This document shows positions 4,258-60,947 of a DNA stretch of 64,000 nt, piece by piece; positions within the stretch are counted from its first letter, which is position 1, and the number at the start of each line of letters is the position of its first letter. The position numbers were made by a program, and so were the translations under genes. The stretch is from Deroplatys truncata. Taxonomy: Eukaryota > Arthropoda > Insecta > Mantodea > Mantidae. The notes below the pieces were generated by a model. It worked only from the letters and a program-made list of their open reading frames with translations. It ran no database searches and was not told the origin of the DNA. The stretch is taken from the NCBI GenBank assembly GCA_030765065.1, contig CM060984.1, positions 105,629,488 through 105,693,487 of the forward strand. Direction: 5' to 3'.

Positions 4258-5151
4258 ACTTTCTCTACTACGTATAGTAAGTAGGGGAAGTATTGCATTC
4301 CACCCAAAAATTCGATACCGAGATTTCACCGGAAATACACGTTTTGAGACCTCCTGAATCCAAAAAAAGCATTTTTAGAAACATGTCCGTGTGTGTGTCT
4401 GTGTGTGTGTGTGTCTGTGTGTGTGTGTGTCTGTGTGTGTGTCTGTGTGTGTGTCTGTGAACAGCATAACTCAAAAACGAACAATCGGATAAGCACCAAA
4501 CTTGGTATTTAGGTTCAGTATCTTCCAGAGATGCGACACGAAGGTTTTCAAGAAAATCCCCCCACCCCAGACTACCCTTTACATGGAACATTTTTCGAAA
4601 ATTTTAATTTTCTCAAAAACGGCTCTAACGATTTTGATTAAAATATCATATGTTTAAGATATTGTCATGACAAATAAAATGTATATCTCGAATTTTCTGG
4701 GAATGTCTCCAAAAGTATTCTTCATTATGAACGACTTTTTCATAACTGGTAAACCATAAGAGATAGACAAAATTTTACTACACAAAAAATGTAGATCGCG
4801 TTAAAATACACAATTTATGTCATATACATTTCTTTTGTTGAGTGAACCGTTTGCGAGATATTGCTTGTTATTCCCTTAAATTTTCCAATACTTATACTTT
4901 TTCTCAAATTCGTTATTCATTTTTTTTATGTTCTGGACATGCAAAGAGAATGGAATGCCCCACATAGCAACCAGCGTTAAAATATTTGACTATCGCTTAA
5001 AAGCTACCATATTCCCCTTGCATCTACAAGAAAATTATCAATAAGATTGACATTTCGATATCTCGATTAACATGAAGCATATGGAGAATAGGCGTTTGTA
5101 AAATTAGGTGGTACAAAAGTAGAGAAAGTTATGTGAGTGTAACACATCAGA
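4258..5151 (+). mobile_element. Family A element, copy 3 (inner, complete)
   Basis: A complete copy of about 894 bp inserted into the internal poly-T of copy 2. It starts ACTTTCTCTACTACGTATAG, has a (GT)n-rich tract at about 4387-4459, and ends ACACATCAGA followed by seven T. The T-run occurs on both sides, as expected for a target-site duplication of about five T. On the minus strand, 4268-4591 is an open frame of 107 codons rich in His-Thr from the GT tract. It is probably not a gene. Confidence 0.88.
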
Positions 5152-6407
5152 TTTTTTTATGTCCTGGACATGCAAAGAGAATGGAATGCGCCACATAGCA
5201 ACCAGCGATAAAATATTTGACTATCGCTTAAAAGCTACCATATTCCCCTTGCATCTACAAGAAAATTACAAATGAGATTGACATCTCGATATCTAGATTA
5301 ATATGAAGCATATGGAGAATAGGCGTTTGTAAAAATAGATTGTACAAGGGTAGAAAAAGTCATGTGAGTGTAACACATCAGATTTTGTTGTATTATAGTT
5401 CATATGGAAAGTCAGTTTGAAGATGATGCATTATATTTCAACTGTTGGGAACCGAACTTGTAGCAGTTGTTTGCAACCGCACGTATGGTACCCGGTTTCC
5501 GGTAGCCTTCACCCCAAATGTACTTTCAGGTGGCCTTTGCACCAAGTTTAAAAAAATATCAGCTTTGTAATTTGATAGTTTCTTTAGATATTTTATATTT
5601 ATGTTTGCCTCGGCTGCGTCAGTATTATTGTTAGAGACACTTTTCTCTTAGCAGGGTTGTGGTGCAACAAGAATGTAGGCTTACACAGATTTTAAGGTTT
5701 AATTCACTCCTTTTTATTAATCCTTGACGCAAATTAAATAGTACTTCACTGATATCGAGAGCTGTCAGGTTGTTTTATTTAATACTTGCACCTTTTATTT
5801 AACACGTATACTTATTTTTCGTCTCACAGGAATACAACTTATATTTCTTGAGGACGCACAAGCAACACATCCAGTTATGAGCACTGTCTGCAGGCAACAC
5901 ATCTGGTTATGAGCACTGTTTGGAGGCAACTGAATTGATTTCAACCGTCTAAACTTGTAAATTTCTGTATTTCAAGTCTCTGTTTGGCTAATCCTAGTCC
6001 AATAGAACACCTTCATTTAACTAAAGCTTTTTCTGGATGTTGATTGGCTATTTTTAAACTGTACCAAAATTTACATTATTGCTGTTCTAATAATGACTAG
6101 TAGCATTTATTAAACTTTCTTACTCATTATTGCCTCAAGGTTACCTCATTCTTATCTCCTTGTTAGCAACTTTTGACCTATTTCTCACAGCTCCTACATT
6201 ATTAAATTACGTAATGCATTTACATAACATTATTGAACATGTTTACAATAATATAAGCATATGCAATGGCTGTTACATACATTTTACAAATTATTACATA
6301 CACACATTGCTTCAAGGCGGGCTGTTATTGAATTTATATATGATATAATTTGACTGAAATCATTTAAGTGTTAAAAATACTGCCTTAAAGTGTTCTTTCG
6401 TTCACAA

Positions 6408-23232: not shown

Positions 23233-23381
23233 AGGTAAGCAATAGAGAAAGTAAGAAGGAAAGAATGTTTTGTGGGATGTAGTAGGGTAGAGAGAGATCA
23301 TGAGGGCAAAAATTCAGATAGGAGTCAGGTTTGGTTTCATCATCCAAAATGCAACATTAGTATAAGAAAGAAGATTATATT

Positions 23382-23787
23382 ACCGAGTGGGATGGCTCAG
23401 GCGATAAAGTCTGTGGCCCGCATTTGGGAGGTGCCGGGTTCAAATCCCGTGGGCCGACCAATCTGTCTGAGGTTTTTTCGTGGTTTTGCTCAGTCATCAA
23501 GGTATATACCGGATTGCATATTTAATATCACGACCCAAAGTTCCATCTTAAGTTTAAAACAATAGTAAAATGAAAAATAAGTGGCAATAGTGAATGCTAT
23601 GCCATCAATCTACAGACAATGCAAGCAATTAGACTGGACGGCACCCTAATGCCATCTGCACGTCATGAAGAAGGGGTTACAGGGATGAGACCTAGAAGGC
23701 TAACTATCCATCACATATCGTTCTAAGAGATATCCACCAACAGATCCGTCGCGATATGAACAAGGAGTTAAAGCGACGTAAAATAAA
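23382..23787 (+). mobile_element. Repeat family D, copy 1 (tRNA-derived SINE with 3' body)
   Basis: The head reads GAGTGGGATGGCTCAGGCG (A-box region) and GGGTTCAAATCCCG (B-box), a clear tRNA-related RNA polymerase III promoter. It continues with 'ttttttcgtggttttgctcag', 'taatatcacgacccaaagttcca' variants, then a segment of about 75 bp that loosely matches one unit of the 76-bp satellite at 37.4 kb. A 3' part 'gacctagaaggctaac' follows, and it ends in an A-rich tail. It is the intact-layout reference for the expanded copy D2. Confidence 0.8.
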
Positions 23788-23801: not shown

Positions 23802-24617
23802 ATCTGATGTGTTACACTCACATGACTTTCTCTACCCCTGTACAAACTTTTTTACAAATACTTATTCTCCATATGCTTCATGTTAATCGAGATGTTAATC
23901 TTATTGCTAATTTTCTTGTAGGTACACGGGGAATATGGTAGTATTTAAGCGATAATCAAATCTTTTAAGAGCTGGTTGCTATGTGCGCATTCCATTATCT
24001 TTGTATGTCCAGAACATAAAAAATGAATAAAGAACCCTATCTGAGAAAAAGTATTGGAAAATTTAAGGGAATAACAAGCAATATCTCGAAAATGGTTCAC
24101 TCAACAAAAAAATGTATATGACATAAATTGTGCATTTTAACGCGATCTAAATTTTTGGTGTAGTAAAATTTTGTCTATCTCTTATGGTTTACCAGTTCTG
24201 CAAAAGTGGTTCACAATGAAGAAGAATACTTTTGGAGACATTCCCAGAAAATTCGAGATATACATTTCATTTGCCATGAAAATATCTTAAACATATGATA
24301 TTTTAGTCAAAATCGTAGGAAATTAAAATTTTTGAAAAATGTTCCATGTAAATGGTAATCTGTGGTGAGGGAATTTTCTTGTAAACCTTCTTGTCGCATC
24401 TCTGGAAGATACTGAACCTAAATACCAAGTTTGAAGTTTATTCCACTGTTCGTTTCTGAGTTATGTTGTTCACAGACACACACATGGACATGTTTCCAAA
24501 AATGCTCTTTTTGGATTCAGGGGGTCTCAAAAACATATATTTCCGGTGAAATCTGGGTATATAATTTTTGGGTGGAATACAATACTTCCCCTACATACTA
24601 TACGTAGTAGAGAAAGT
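23802..24617 (-). mobile_element. Family A element, copy 6, with 14-bp target-site duplication
   Basis: It begins TCTGATGTGTTACACTCAC and ends CTACGTAGTAGAGAAAGT. The 14-mer AATAGAATAAAAAA occurs directly before it (23788-23801) and directly after it (24618-24631), a perfect target-site duplication. The target is the A-rich tail of repeat D1. This fixes both termini of the family to the base or nearly so. Confidence 0.92.
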
Positions 24618-32857: not shown

Positions 32858-32945
32858 TGCCTATCAGCCAGGGAAAACCATAGAAAAACCCAGGTCATCG
32901 TGGACAGCCCAACGGGAAACGAACCCGGAACCTACCGAATGCGGA

Positions 32946-36560: not shown

Positions 36561-37189
36561 CTTCATGTCGACGATGTTTATTGAACAACCGTTAAAAAAC
36601 CTAAAAAGCTTGTTACTATGTATAAGAGCTCTTCAATAATATATTAAAAATGCTGATGAGGCTAAACATACACGAAACAAAGAAATTGAAGATATGAAAA
36701 TTATTAATAAACTTTATATAAGAAATACTTATCTGCGACTTTTTATCAGTCGGGAATATCTCTTCAAATGAAAGGTCAAGATGTCTGCACATCATTGGTT
36801 TAAACAATAGTTATTTACCTAAACTTCATTGGAATCTAAAGATGATTTTTTTCTCCTTCCTTGATATTATATGCATTGGTTCAGCATCCTTCTGGAATTT
36901 TGCATAATGAGTTTACACAATTTCCAAAGCATGTTTCGTGTTGTGTACGGTAGCTCAGGGCGCACACATGCAAGAAACTAAAGCTATGCTTGTTTAATTA
37001 GATTAAATATGCTTATTTTTGACATGTGTTTGTATGCCCTTTACGCAATGTTTAAAAGTAGCATTGAAATTAAATAAAATTGAACACAAATAATAAACAA
37101 AACAATACTCTTGCTCGGAAGTGCTCGTTCCCTTAGCCCTTAACAGATTAATATAAAAAGGCATTTCTAATAATTATGAATAAGAAATA
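36561..37189. other. No gene recognised
   Basis: AT-rich DNA with no nameable feature. Confidence 0.5.
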
Positions 37190-37440
37190 CTGAGCGGGAT
37201 GGGTTAGGAAGTAACGTCTGCGGCCAGGATTTGGAGGTCTCTGGTTCAAATCACATGCGCCGATCAATCTGTTTTTTTTGGTGTGTGTGTGTGTGTGTAT
37301 GTGTGTGTGTGTGTGTGTGTGCAGGTTTCCCTTAGTTACCAAGGAGAATAGATATTTAATATCACAATTCAAACTTCCACCTTAAGTCTAAAGCAACAGA
37401 AGCAAAAAATGAAAATAAATGGTAATGGCGAATGCTTCGC
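37190..37440 (+). mobile_element. Repeat family D, copy 2, tRNA-like head
   Basis: Starts GAGCGGGATGGGTTAGG, with a B-box TGGTTCAAATCAC near 37241-37253. It then matches D1 through 'tatttaatatcacaattcaaa', 'ccaccttaagtctaaa' and 'atggcgaatgct'. A (GT)n run (37279-37321) has grown where D1 has 'ctgaggttttttcg'. Its 3' part resumes only after the 76-bp satellite. Confidence 0.8.
37279..37321. repeat. (GT)n microsatellite
   Basis: About 21 GT units with one AT interruption, inside the D2 head. Confidence 0.95.
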
Positions 37441-39575
37441 CCAGCACTAAGGTCTCTGTGGACACGTGTCGAAGTAATCAGTTTCCCGGCACGTGTAGAA
37501 GCAGAGATACAGTTGCCTGTCACTAAGGTCTCTGTGGACACGTGTCGAAGCAATCAATTGGCCATCACGTGTGGAAGCAGAGATACAGTTGCCTGTCACT
37601 AAGGTCTCTGTGGACACGTGTCGAAGCAATCGTCTGGCCATCACGTGTGGAAGCAGAGATACAGTTGCCTGTCACTAAGGTCTCTGTGGACACGTGTCGA
37701 AGCAATCATCTGGGCATCACGTGTGGAAGCAGAGATACAGTTGCTTGGTAATAAGGTCTCTGTGGACACGTGTCGAAGCAATCATCTGGCCATCACGTGT
37801 GGAAGCAGAGATACAGTTGCCTGTCACTAAGGTCTCTGTGGACACGTGTCGAAGCAATCATCTGGGCATCACGTGTGGAAGCAGAGATACAGTTGCTTGG
37901 TAATAAGGTCTCTGTGGACACGTGTCGAAGCAATCATCTGGCCATCACGTGTGGAAGCAGAGATACAGTTGCCTGTCACTAAGGTCTCTGTGGACACGTG
38001 TCGAAGCAATCATCTGGCCATCACGTGTGGAAGCAGAGATACAGTTGCCTGTCACTAAGATTTCTGTAGACACGTGTCGAAGCAATCATCTGGCCATCAC
38101 GTGTGGAAGCAGAGATACAGTTGCTTGGTAGTAAGGTCTCTGTGGACACGTGTCGAAGCAATCATCTGGGCATCACGTGTGGAAGCAGAGATACAGTTGC
38201 TTGGTAATAAGGTCTCTGTGGACACGTGTCGAAGCAATCATCTGGCCATCACGTGTGGAAGCAGAGATACAGTTGCCTGTCACTAAGATTTCTGTGGACA
38301 CGTGTCGAAGCAATCATCTGGCCATCACGTGTGGAAGCAGAGATACAGTTGCCTGTCACTAAGGTCTCTGTGGACACGTGTCGAAGTAATCATCTGGCCA
38401 TCACGTGTGGAAGCAGAGATACAGTTGCTTGGCAATAAGGTCTCTGTGGACACGTGTCGAAGCAATCATCTGGGCATCACGTGTGGAAGCAGAGATACAG
38501 TTGCTTGGCAATAAGGTCTCTGTGGACACGTGTCGAAGCAATCATCTGGCCATCACGTGTGGAAGCAGAGATACAGTTGCCTGTCACTAAGGTCTCTGTG
38601 GACACGTGTCGAAGCAATCATCTGACCATCACGTGTGGAAGCAGAGATACAGTTGCCTGTCACTAAGGTCTCTGTGGACACGTGTCGAAGCAATCATCTG
38701 GCCATCACGTGTGGAAGCAGAGATACAGTTGCCTGTCACTAAGATTTCTGTGGACACGTGTCGAAGCAATCATCTGGCCATCACGTGTGGAAGCAGAGAT
38801 ACATGCCTGTCACTAAGGTCTCTGTGGACACGTGTCGAAGCAATCATCTGGCCATCACGTGTGGAAGCAGAGATACAGTTGCTTGGTAATAAGGTCTCTG
38901 TGGATACGTGTCGAAGCAGTCATCTGCTCGTCATGTGTAGAAGCAGGGATACATTTGCCTGGCACTAAGATCTCTGTGAATAGGTGTCGATAAAGTCATC
39001 TTCCTGTCACATGTTGAAGCAGAGATAGTTTTCTAGCACTAATGTCTCTGTGGATACATGCCGAAGCGGTCATCTGCTCGGTATGTGTAAAAGCAGAGAT
39101 ATAGTTGCCTGCCACTAAGATCTCTATGGACAAATGTCGAAGCAGTCCGTATAGAAGCAGAGATACAGTCGTCTAGTACTAATGTCTTTGTGGATACATT
39201 TCGAAGCAGTCATCTTTCCGTCACGTGTAGAAGCTGAGATACAATTGCCTAACACTAAGGTCTTTGTGGACATGTGTCGAAGCAGTCATCTGCTCGGCAC
39301 GTGTAGAAGCACAGATACAGTTGTCGGGCCCTAAGGTCTCTTTGGACAGGTGTCGACGCAGTCATTTTCCCGCTACGTATAGAAGCAGGGATATAGTTGC
39401 CTAGCATAAGGTATCCCTCTGTGTGATGCAGTCAATTGCCCGAATAGGTAGATGCAGAGATAGAGTTGGCTGGCCCTAAGGTATCTGTGGACACGTGTCG
39501 AAGCAGTCAGCTGTCCGTCAGGTATAGAAGCAGAGGTATATGTCTAGCATCAAGGCTTCTGTGAACATGCGACAA
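37441..39575. repeat. 76-bp tandem satellite, about 28 units
   Basis: Units repeat at exactly 76 bases through 37450-38940 (about 20 nearly identical units) and continue as about 8 strongly diverged units to 39575. Each unit has two CACGTG palindromes 27 bases apart (in 'gacacgtgtcgaagca' and 'atcacgtgtggaagca'), so it may itself derive from a shorter repeat. Two variant junctions alternate ('ttgcctgtcact' and 'ttgcttggtaat'). One unit near 38805 lacks a few bases. The many overlapping 60-120 codon frames arise because 76 is not a multiple of 3. They are not genes. Confidence 0.97.
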
Positions 39576-39680
39576 AGTAAGGTGGTAAGGTACGGGGATG
39601 AAACCTAGAAGGCTGTCGGCCACGCGCCGATCCAAGAGGAATCTCCTAACAGATATGTGACGATATTACAAATTTTCGTA
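39576..39680 (+). mobile_element. Repeat family D, copy 2, 3' part
   Basis: The segment 'gggatgaaacctagaaggct' through 'cctaacagatatgtgacgat' matches the 3' part of D1 (23680-23765). The satellite therefore lies between the two halves of one D element. Confidence 0.75.
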
Positions 39681-60604: not shown

Positions 60605-60835
60605 CTTCTCTAACGGACTATCCTCCTCCTTATAGCACTTGTACCCCCAGGACTTACAAGCCAATGCCTTGGATCTGTAGCCTGTCGAGGAGCAAGCAAA
60701 CTCTGGATCATAGCATATCCAGGATGAGTGATCAGACTGATGCCTTGTAGGTCGGGAAGAAGACGGAAATGAAATGTGATGAAAGCGAAATAGGAAAATT
60801 CGCGGATCAAATTATCCAATCCAGCATTCTCCTAG
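60605..60835 (-). mobile_element. SINE family E, copy 2 (head missing)
   Basis: Matches 25795-25960 in order ('cctccttatagcacttgtac', 'cccaggacttacaagc', 'tagcctgtcgaggagcaa', 'ggaaatgaaatg'). Confidence 0.65.
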
Positions 60836-60837
60836 CG

Positions 60838-60947
60838 ACCATGGAAAACCGCGAAAAAACTGCAAATTGTTAGCTTCGGGAGGTATGAATCCGGTACCTC
60901 CCGAATGCAGGTCATAGACGTTACCGCCTGAGCCATCCCGCTCGGTT
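60838..60947 (-). mobile_element. Repeat family D head, copy 3
   Basis: On minus: CCGAGCGGGATGGCTCAGG, a GGTACCGGATTCATACC B-box region, and 'gttttttcgcggttttcc'. It is the best preserved A-box of the three D heads. Truncated after about 110 bp. Confidence 0.8.

Follow-up and report, generated by a model that had tools for sequence, protein, structure and literature searches.

The window that we analyzed—the whole stretch of 64,000 nucleotides from the mantis Deroplatys truncata—was placed at C10:105629488-105693487 of a genome of 4.29 Gb. Within that window, one copy of the dispersed repeat D, here called D2, contains a tandem array of a 76-bp unit, which was delimited by Tandem Repeats Finder (TRF) at 37445-39535 (period 76, 27.8 copies, score 2799) and counted as 28.4 units by wrap-around alignment. 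On the forward strand, D2 begins with a head whose first part resembles a pol III promoter (37188..37271; 81% over 85 columns to the D head consensus) and which includes a (GT)n microsatellite (37281..37321; TRF, 20.5 copies), continues through the body preceding the array (37324..37436; 79% to the D consensus and 76-84% to 40 genomic copies), and resumes beyond the array with the tail (39591..39669; 77% over 83 columns), from which the 3' terminal part, corresponding to GTTAAAGCGACGTAAAATA in other copies, is missing. Since head and tail both match the D consensus—and can also be aligned to D1, the second copy in the window—the array lies between parts of one element, as the first-pass annotation of this DNA had described it, and the approximately 28 units are confirmed at 37443-39578 by both TRF and wrap-around alignment.

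The array itself (37443..39578, forward strand; about 28 units, or 29 unit matches if partial ones are counted) starts with a truncated unit, and our own reading against the printed middles of other copies suggests that D2 lacks, between 37436 and 37443, a stretch of body sequence of roughly 90 bp that reaches unit position 42. There follow, on the same strand, a homogeneous block of 18 units that is the youngest part of the array (D2a, 37559..38918; mean pairwise identity 0.955), a diverged, older block of 8 units (D2b, 38921..39505; mean pairwise identity 0.789), and a final unit carrying the B-type base, as defined below, at unit position 68 (39508..39578). Apart from D1 and D2, the window contained no D tail and no unit, and only two head-like fragments were found, these being SINE heads devoid of a D tail at 32872-32944 and 60810-60946, both on the reverse strand. 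No inverted repeats of at least 14 bp were found at the D2 locus, and the DNA-folding z-scores (-0.75 and -1.43) gave no support to the idea that growth was caused by a strong hairpin in the unit. Of the 13 open reading frames listed, the 10 submitted to Pfam gave no match, and the locus had no meaningful match in Rfam, the best being SCARNA7 with 21 bits versus a gathering score of 65. At 4921-5386 of the window, TRF also reported a 231-bp tandem repeat in two copies, with 93% matches.

Repeat D is SINE-like and probably has a tRNA-type promoter, in that the consensus of its head fits the A box TRGYNNARNNG and the B box RGTTCRANTCC, motifs that we took from an excerpt of PMC9191728. The single copies have decayed, with an A box in 15 of 39, a B box in 13, and both exactly in 6. 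The designation of the repeat as tRNA-derived in the first-pass annotation stands as regards these canonical boxes of the consensus, but no tRNA was called at the D heads: ARAGORN found none in the window or in 16 loci and, with lowered thresholds, made only weak or inconsistent calls on the D consensus, while the Rfam tRNA model matched none of the D heads in 9 loci. Near one D copy, a tRNA-like sequence occurs on the reverse strand (L006:1966-2038; Rfam RF00005, 37.3 bits). For target-site duplications we considered 40 copies (39 plus D1, with D2 left out), 21 of which were testable; flanking direct repeats of at least 8 bp were present in 8 of the 21, versus 4.0% in shuffled pairings, and those of at least 10 bp in 4 of the 21, versus 0%, and one of the eight brackets the array copy L022. 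D thus exhibits the target-site duplications of a tRNA-derived SINE, and A-rich 3' ends follow GACGTAAAATA in most of the copies printed.

A genomic search with the head of D2 provided 1241 candidates, whose 40 best-scored—D2 and 39 others—constitute a sample that is not random, being biased toward D2-like heads, and in whose choice the middle of the element played no part. By wrap-around alignment and a class assignment of our own, those 40 copies comprised 1 without a unit (L011, 0.37 by that alignment), 6 with about one (0.53-1.0), 14 with about two (1.42-2.21), 4 arrays (L012, L022, L019, and D2, with 8.3, 10.0, 17.0, and 28.4 units, respectively), and 15 with duplications in other registers. 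The first-pass annotation had predicted such a series of unit numbers, and the series was found, at approximately 0, 1, 2, 8, 10, 17, and 28 units among the 40 head-selected copies. The D head and tail were both present in all four arrays, and unit-like sequence occupied the same place between head and tail in the 6 one-unit and the 14 two-unit copies; as in a SINE-derived satellite, the unit is homologous to part of the SINE and the array is bounded by the SINE termini. In L011, the junction of the contraction would fall, by our own reading, at a short GAAGCA motif that is present twice per unit. Among the copies with other registers, TRF revealed a second tandem unit of 105 bp in 5 of the 15 (L002, L014, L015, L016, and L027), which belong to a sister subfamily of the same SINE and have 1.9 to 4.8 copies of that unit, the maximum being in L015 (L015:343-841). 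In L037, about 1.07 kb of foreign DNA separates the D head from the units.

Two further searches widened the series. A query of units plus tail, which favors copies running from unit into tail, gave 2394 candidates; the 40 scored all ran from unit to tail, about 25 of them with two units, 8 with about three, and 7 with about four or more (approximately 4, 6, 7, 8, 9, 9, and 21). A dimer of the satellite unit gave 1035 candidates, 40 of them scored, with 191 matches; from the 150 matches listed we drew at least 35 loci, D2 included, which among those matches spanned about 2 to 42 units (the longest covering 3.2 kb), and D flanks were seen at 2 of the 35, D2 and C4:24768567, these being the two that the flank check covered. 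At two places (G000:C6:74702325-74703440 and G000:C9:14004043-14004381) successive matches lay about 71 bp apart instead of 76, which spacing points to a shortened variant of the unit. In a small random sample of the genome, 20 stretches of 10 kb (200 kb), neither the unit nor the D tail was present; nine head-like matches occurred within 7 of the 20 stretches (L041-L060) and, since these lacked a D tail or unit, the head is common to other, more abundant repeats.

D1, for its part, has a head at 23381..23610 (90% to the D head consensus) and a tail at 23678..23787 (91% to the D tail consensus), between which lies a middle of contracted form that contains about 0.34 unit (23611..23677), all on the forward strand; the wrap-around alignment retains about 26 of the 76 unit columns. 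The claim that D1 contains some 75 bp loosely matching one unit did not hold: the match of the middle was not above that of shuffled sequences, either against the unit dimer (score 20; shuffle mean 15.6, 95% point 21, p 0.11) or against the array's diverged 3' end (score 22, p 0.09), where the reverse strand was equally good (p 0.08). Because of this shuffle-level match, the retention of only about a third of a unit, and the place of D1 on the tree, where it adjoins L006 in a subfamily of different history, we rejected D1 as a one-unit copy or ancestor; the tandem expansion of a segment inside a dispersed repeat, as originally proposed, is supported by the other genomic copies and not by D1. 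On the 3' side of the element, D1, L015, and L035 share the sequence CTGATGTGTTACACTCAC... (window 23805-23847 for D1), from which shared flank D may be suspected of inserting beside or into another repeat.

The two units of the dimeric copies are not equivalent. Across 12 two-unit copies, a consistent difference separated the first unit (A) from the second (B), the observed within-class identity being reached by A/B label swaps in 1 of 1000 permutations. At unit position 12, 9 of the 12 A units had G and 10 of the 12 B units had T; at position 68, 11 of the 12 A units had T and 8 of the 12 B units had A. Among the inner units of the four arrays, 49 of 56 combined a T at position 12, as in B, with a T at position 68, as in A (L012, 5 of 6; L019, 15 of 15; L022, 8 of 8; D2, 21 of 27); among the two-unit copies, that combination was found in 2 of the 12 A units and in none of the 12 B units. 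At the edges, the B base occupied position 68 of the last unit in 3 of the 4 arrays, and the A base occupied position 12 of the first unit in 2. In L012 the last unit lacked the B base and the first had neither state at position 12; in D2 the first unit is truncated, and six of the 27 inner units are not of the T..T type. Inner units that start as B and end as A give the pattern A(BA)nB, the one expected when two units pair out of register.

We judge the expansion inside the element to be real and well supported, and regard it as quite probable that a 76-bp segment of D expanded in tandem inside single insertions by way of the two-unit A-B form. In the scheme that we propose, one 76-bp segment would have resided in the body of the SINE-like retrotransposon D, in some of its copies, and a subfamily with that segment doubled, A then B, would have spread to many places. 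Because two adjacent homologous units allow misalignment, and indeed would suffice for it, unequal exchange or replication slippage in single insertions might then have turned A-B into A-(BA)n-B, the presumed order being from one unit to two and from two to many; further local rounds would have enlarged and homogenized some of the arrays, D2 exhibiting an old diverged and a young homogeneous block, and the instability may be continuing.

If the units dated from the insertion of the element, they should have diverged about twice as far as the flanks have from the subfamily consensus (JC). The observed versus expected divergences were 0.127 versus 0.344 in L012, 0.085 versus 0.266 in L019, and 0.177 versus 0.396 in L022, and for the two blocks of D2, 0.047 versus 0.496 in D2a and 0.249 versus 0.496 in D2b; thus, with the caveat that the rate of evolution may differ between flanks and units and that the head distance to the consensus is a rough clock, the units in all five blocks were 2 to 10 times less diverged than the age of the insertion predicts, D2a the most so, which contrast argues that turnover continued after insertion. 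As a partial control, A and B units from the same two-unit copy differed by 0.235 (12 copies), close to double the 0.118 that the flanks of such copies averaged (14 copies), although this control is not clean, as the difference between A and B predates the spread. In L019, seven consecutive units have an identical 7-bp deletion, which run appears to be a local amplification, and the young block D2a adjoining the old block D2b indicates at least two rounds in D2.

These divergences also weigh upon the possibility that the arrays were born at insertion, during a reverse transcription in which the enzyme slipped or re-started on a repeated template. Such a process, akin to the cDNA re-initiation proposed for the repeat variants of German cockroach SINEs in an excerpt of PMC9191728, would yield A(BA)nB as well, but the units would not then be so much more alike than the age of their insertions predicts; with L022 as the least extreme case, and with later homogenization able to mask such an origin, we consider that possibility unlikely. 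Even less probable is an origin of the satellite before its association with the SINE, which would then have captured one unit and spread it. The at least 35 loci found through the satellite alone, with about 42 units in the longest among the matches listed and flanks seen at 2, would accord with that course of events, but the constant place of the unit-like sequence between head and tail in the 20 one- and two-unit copies, the A and B states kept by the edge units in part of the arrays, and the absence of the unit from the small sample of 200 kb of random genome all speak against it.

The mean identity within arrays was 0.843 for L022, 0.884 for L012, 0.920 for L019, and 0.876 for D2 (0.955 in D2a), these being the only four arrays so compared. 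The tree of heads plus tails had one well-supported branch and distributed the four arrays by three label changes; separate origins of the arrays were not demonstrated by that tree, since shuffled labels gave as low a number in 50 of 500 trials. That the expanded elements were themselves copied, so that many arrays descended from one expanded source, is the least probable of all, for though three label changes on a weak tree suffice for the four arrays, the consensus and the unit variants are particular to each array, and the identity within exceeds that between arrays for L019 and D2a (0.798 to 0.875 between), and less clearly for L012 and L022.

Returning to expansion inside single insertions, we would give about even chances to the broader notion that the two-unit D subfamily constitutes a mobile satellite seed, whose retrotransposition has scattered dimers ready for recombination across the genome and many of whose insertions develop independently into arrays, every stage of satellite birth thus being present in one genome, in separate registers of 76 and 105 bp. 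The beginnings of satellites are usually inferred from finished arrays; here, the copies of one SINE family in one genome range from none through one, two, and a few units up to dozens, and the A and B units mark the site of growth, so that the step from dispersed to tandem becomes countable and datable copy by copy, and the copies of D provide a natural test of growth at insertion versus growth after it. D shows in this manner one way by which a mobile repeat can become satellite DNA.

That route was too strongly termed rarely documented in the first-pass annotation. SINE-derived satellites (sSats) are described in 56 squamate genomes by PMC10702118, with SINE parts in arrays that run from a few units to about 1000, subvariants, and rising homogeneity, and the tables of the reviews PMC9659126 and PMC6947457 include numerous satellites of transposable-element origin, together with short-repeat and unequal-exchange models. 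D is a good example of a known route, through its graded series and its unit mosaic. In the open-licence PMC literature, mostly at the level of abstracts, we found nothing on the D SINE, nor on A(BA)nB arrays that go back to a two-unit seed in dispersed copies. As in the squamate sSats, a SINE part is in tandem at dispersed loci (with a few to hundreds of units there), variants are locus-specific or alternating, and one SINE family may have several registers; longer arrays are more homogeneous in the squamates, a trend that the four D arrays may share; D is another SINE in another genome, and unlike those sSats, most of which keep one SINE terminus and a minority both, it has the array between head and tail, a dispersed two-unit subfamily, and A and B units at the edges. 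The SINE Sbg3 of the German cockroach likewise has copies with different repeat variants, but its repeats are short, and the excerpt of PMC9191728 describes no arrays of satellite length. Comparable, too, are the central tandem repeats of the DINE/Helitron elements of Drosophila, where, according to the excerpts of PMC9659126 and PMC6947457, an internal repeat region gives rise to a satellite, in a DNA transposon, however, and not in a SINE with A and B boxes. The same two excerpts cite the Alu and mouse B1 minisatellites, in which an internal SINE segment also grows in tandem, the units there being short ones such as GGCAGA, as opposed to the 76-bp body segment of D.
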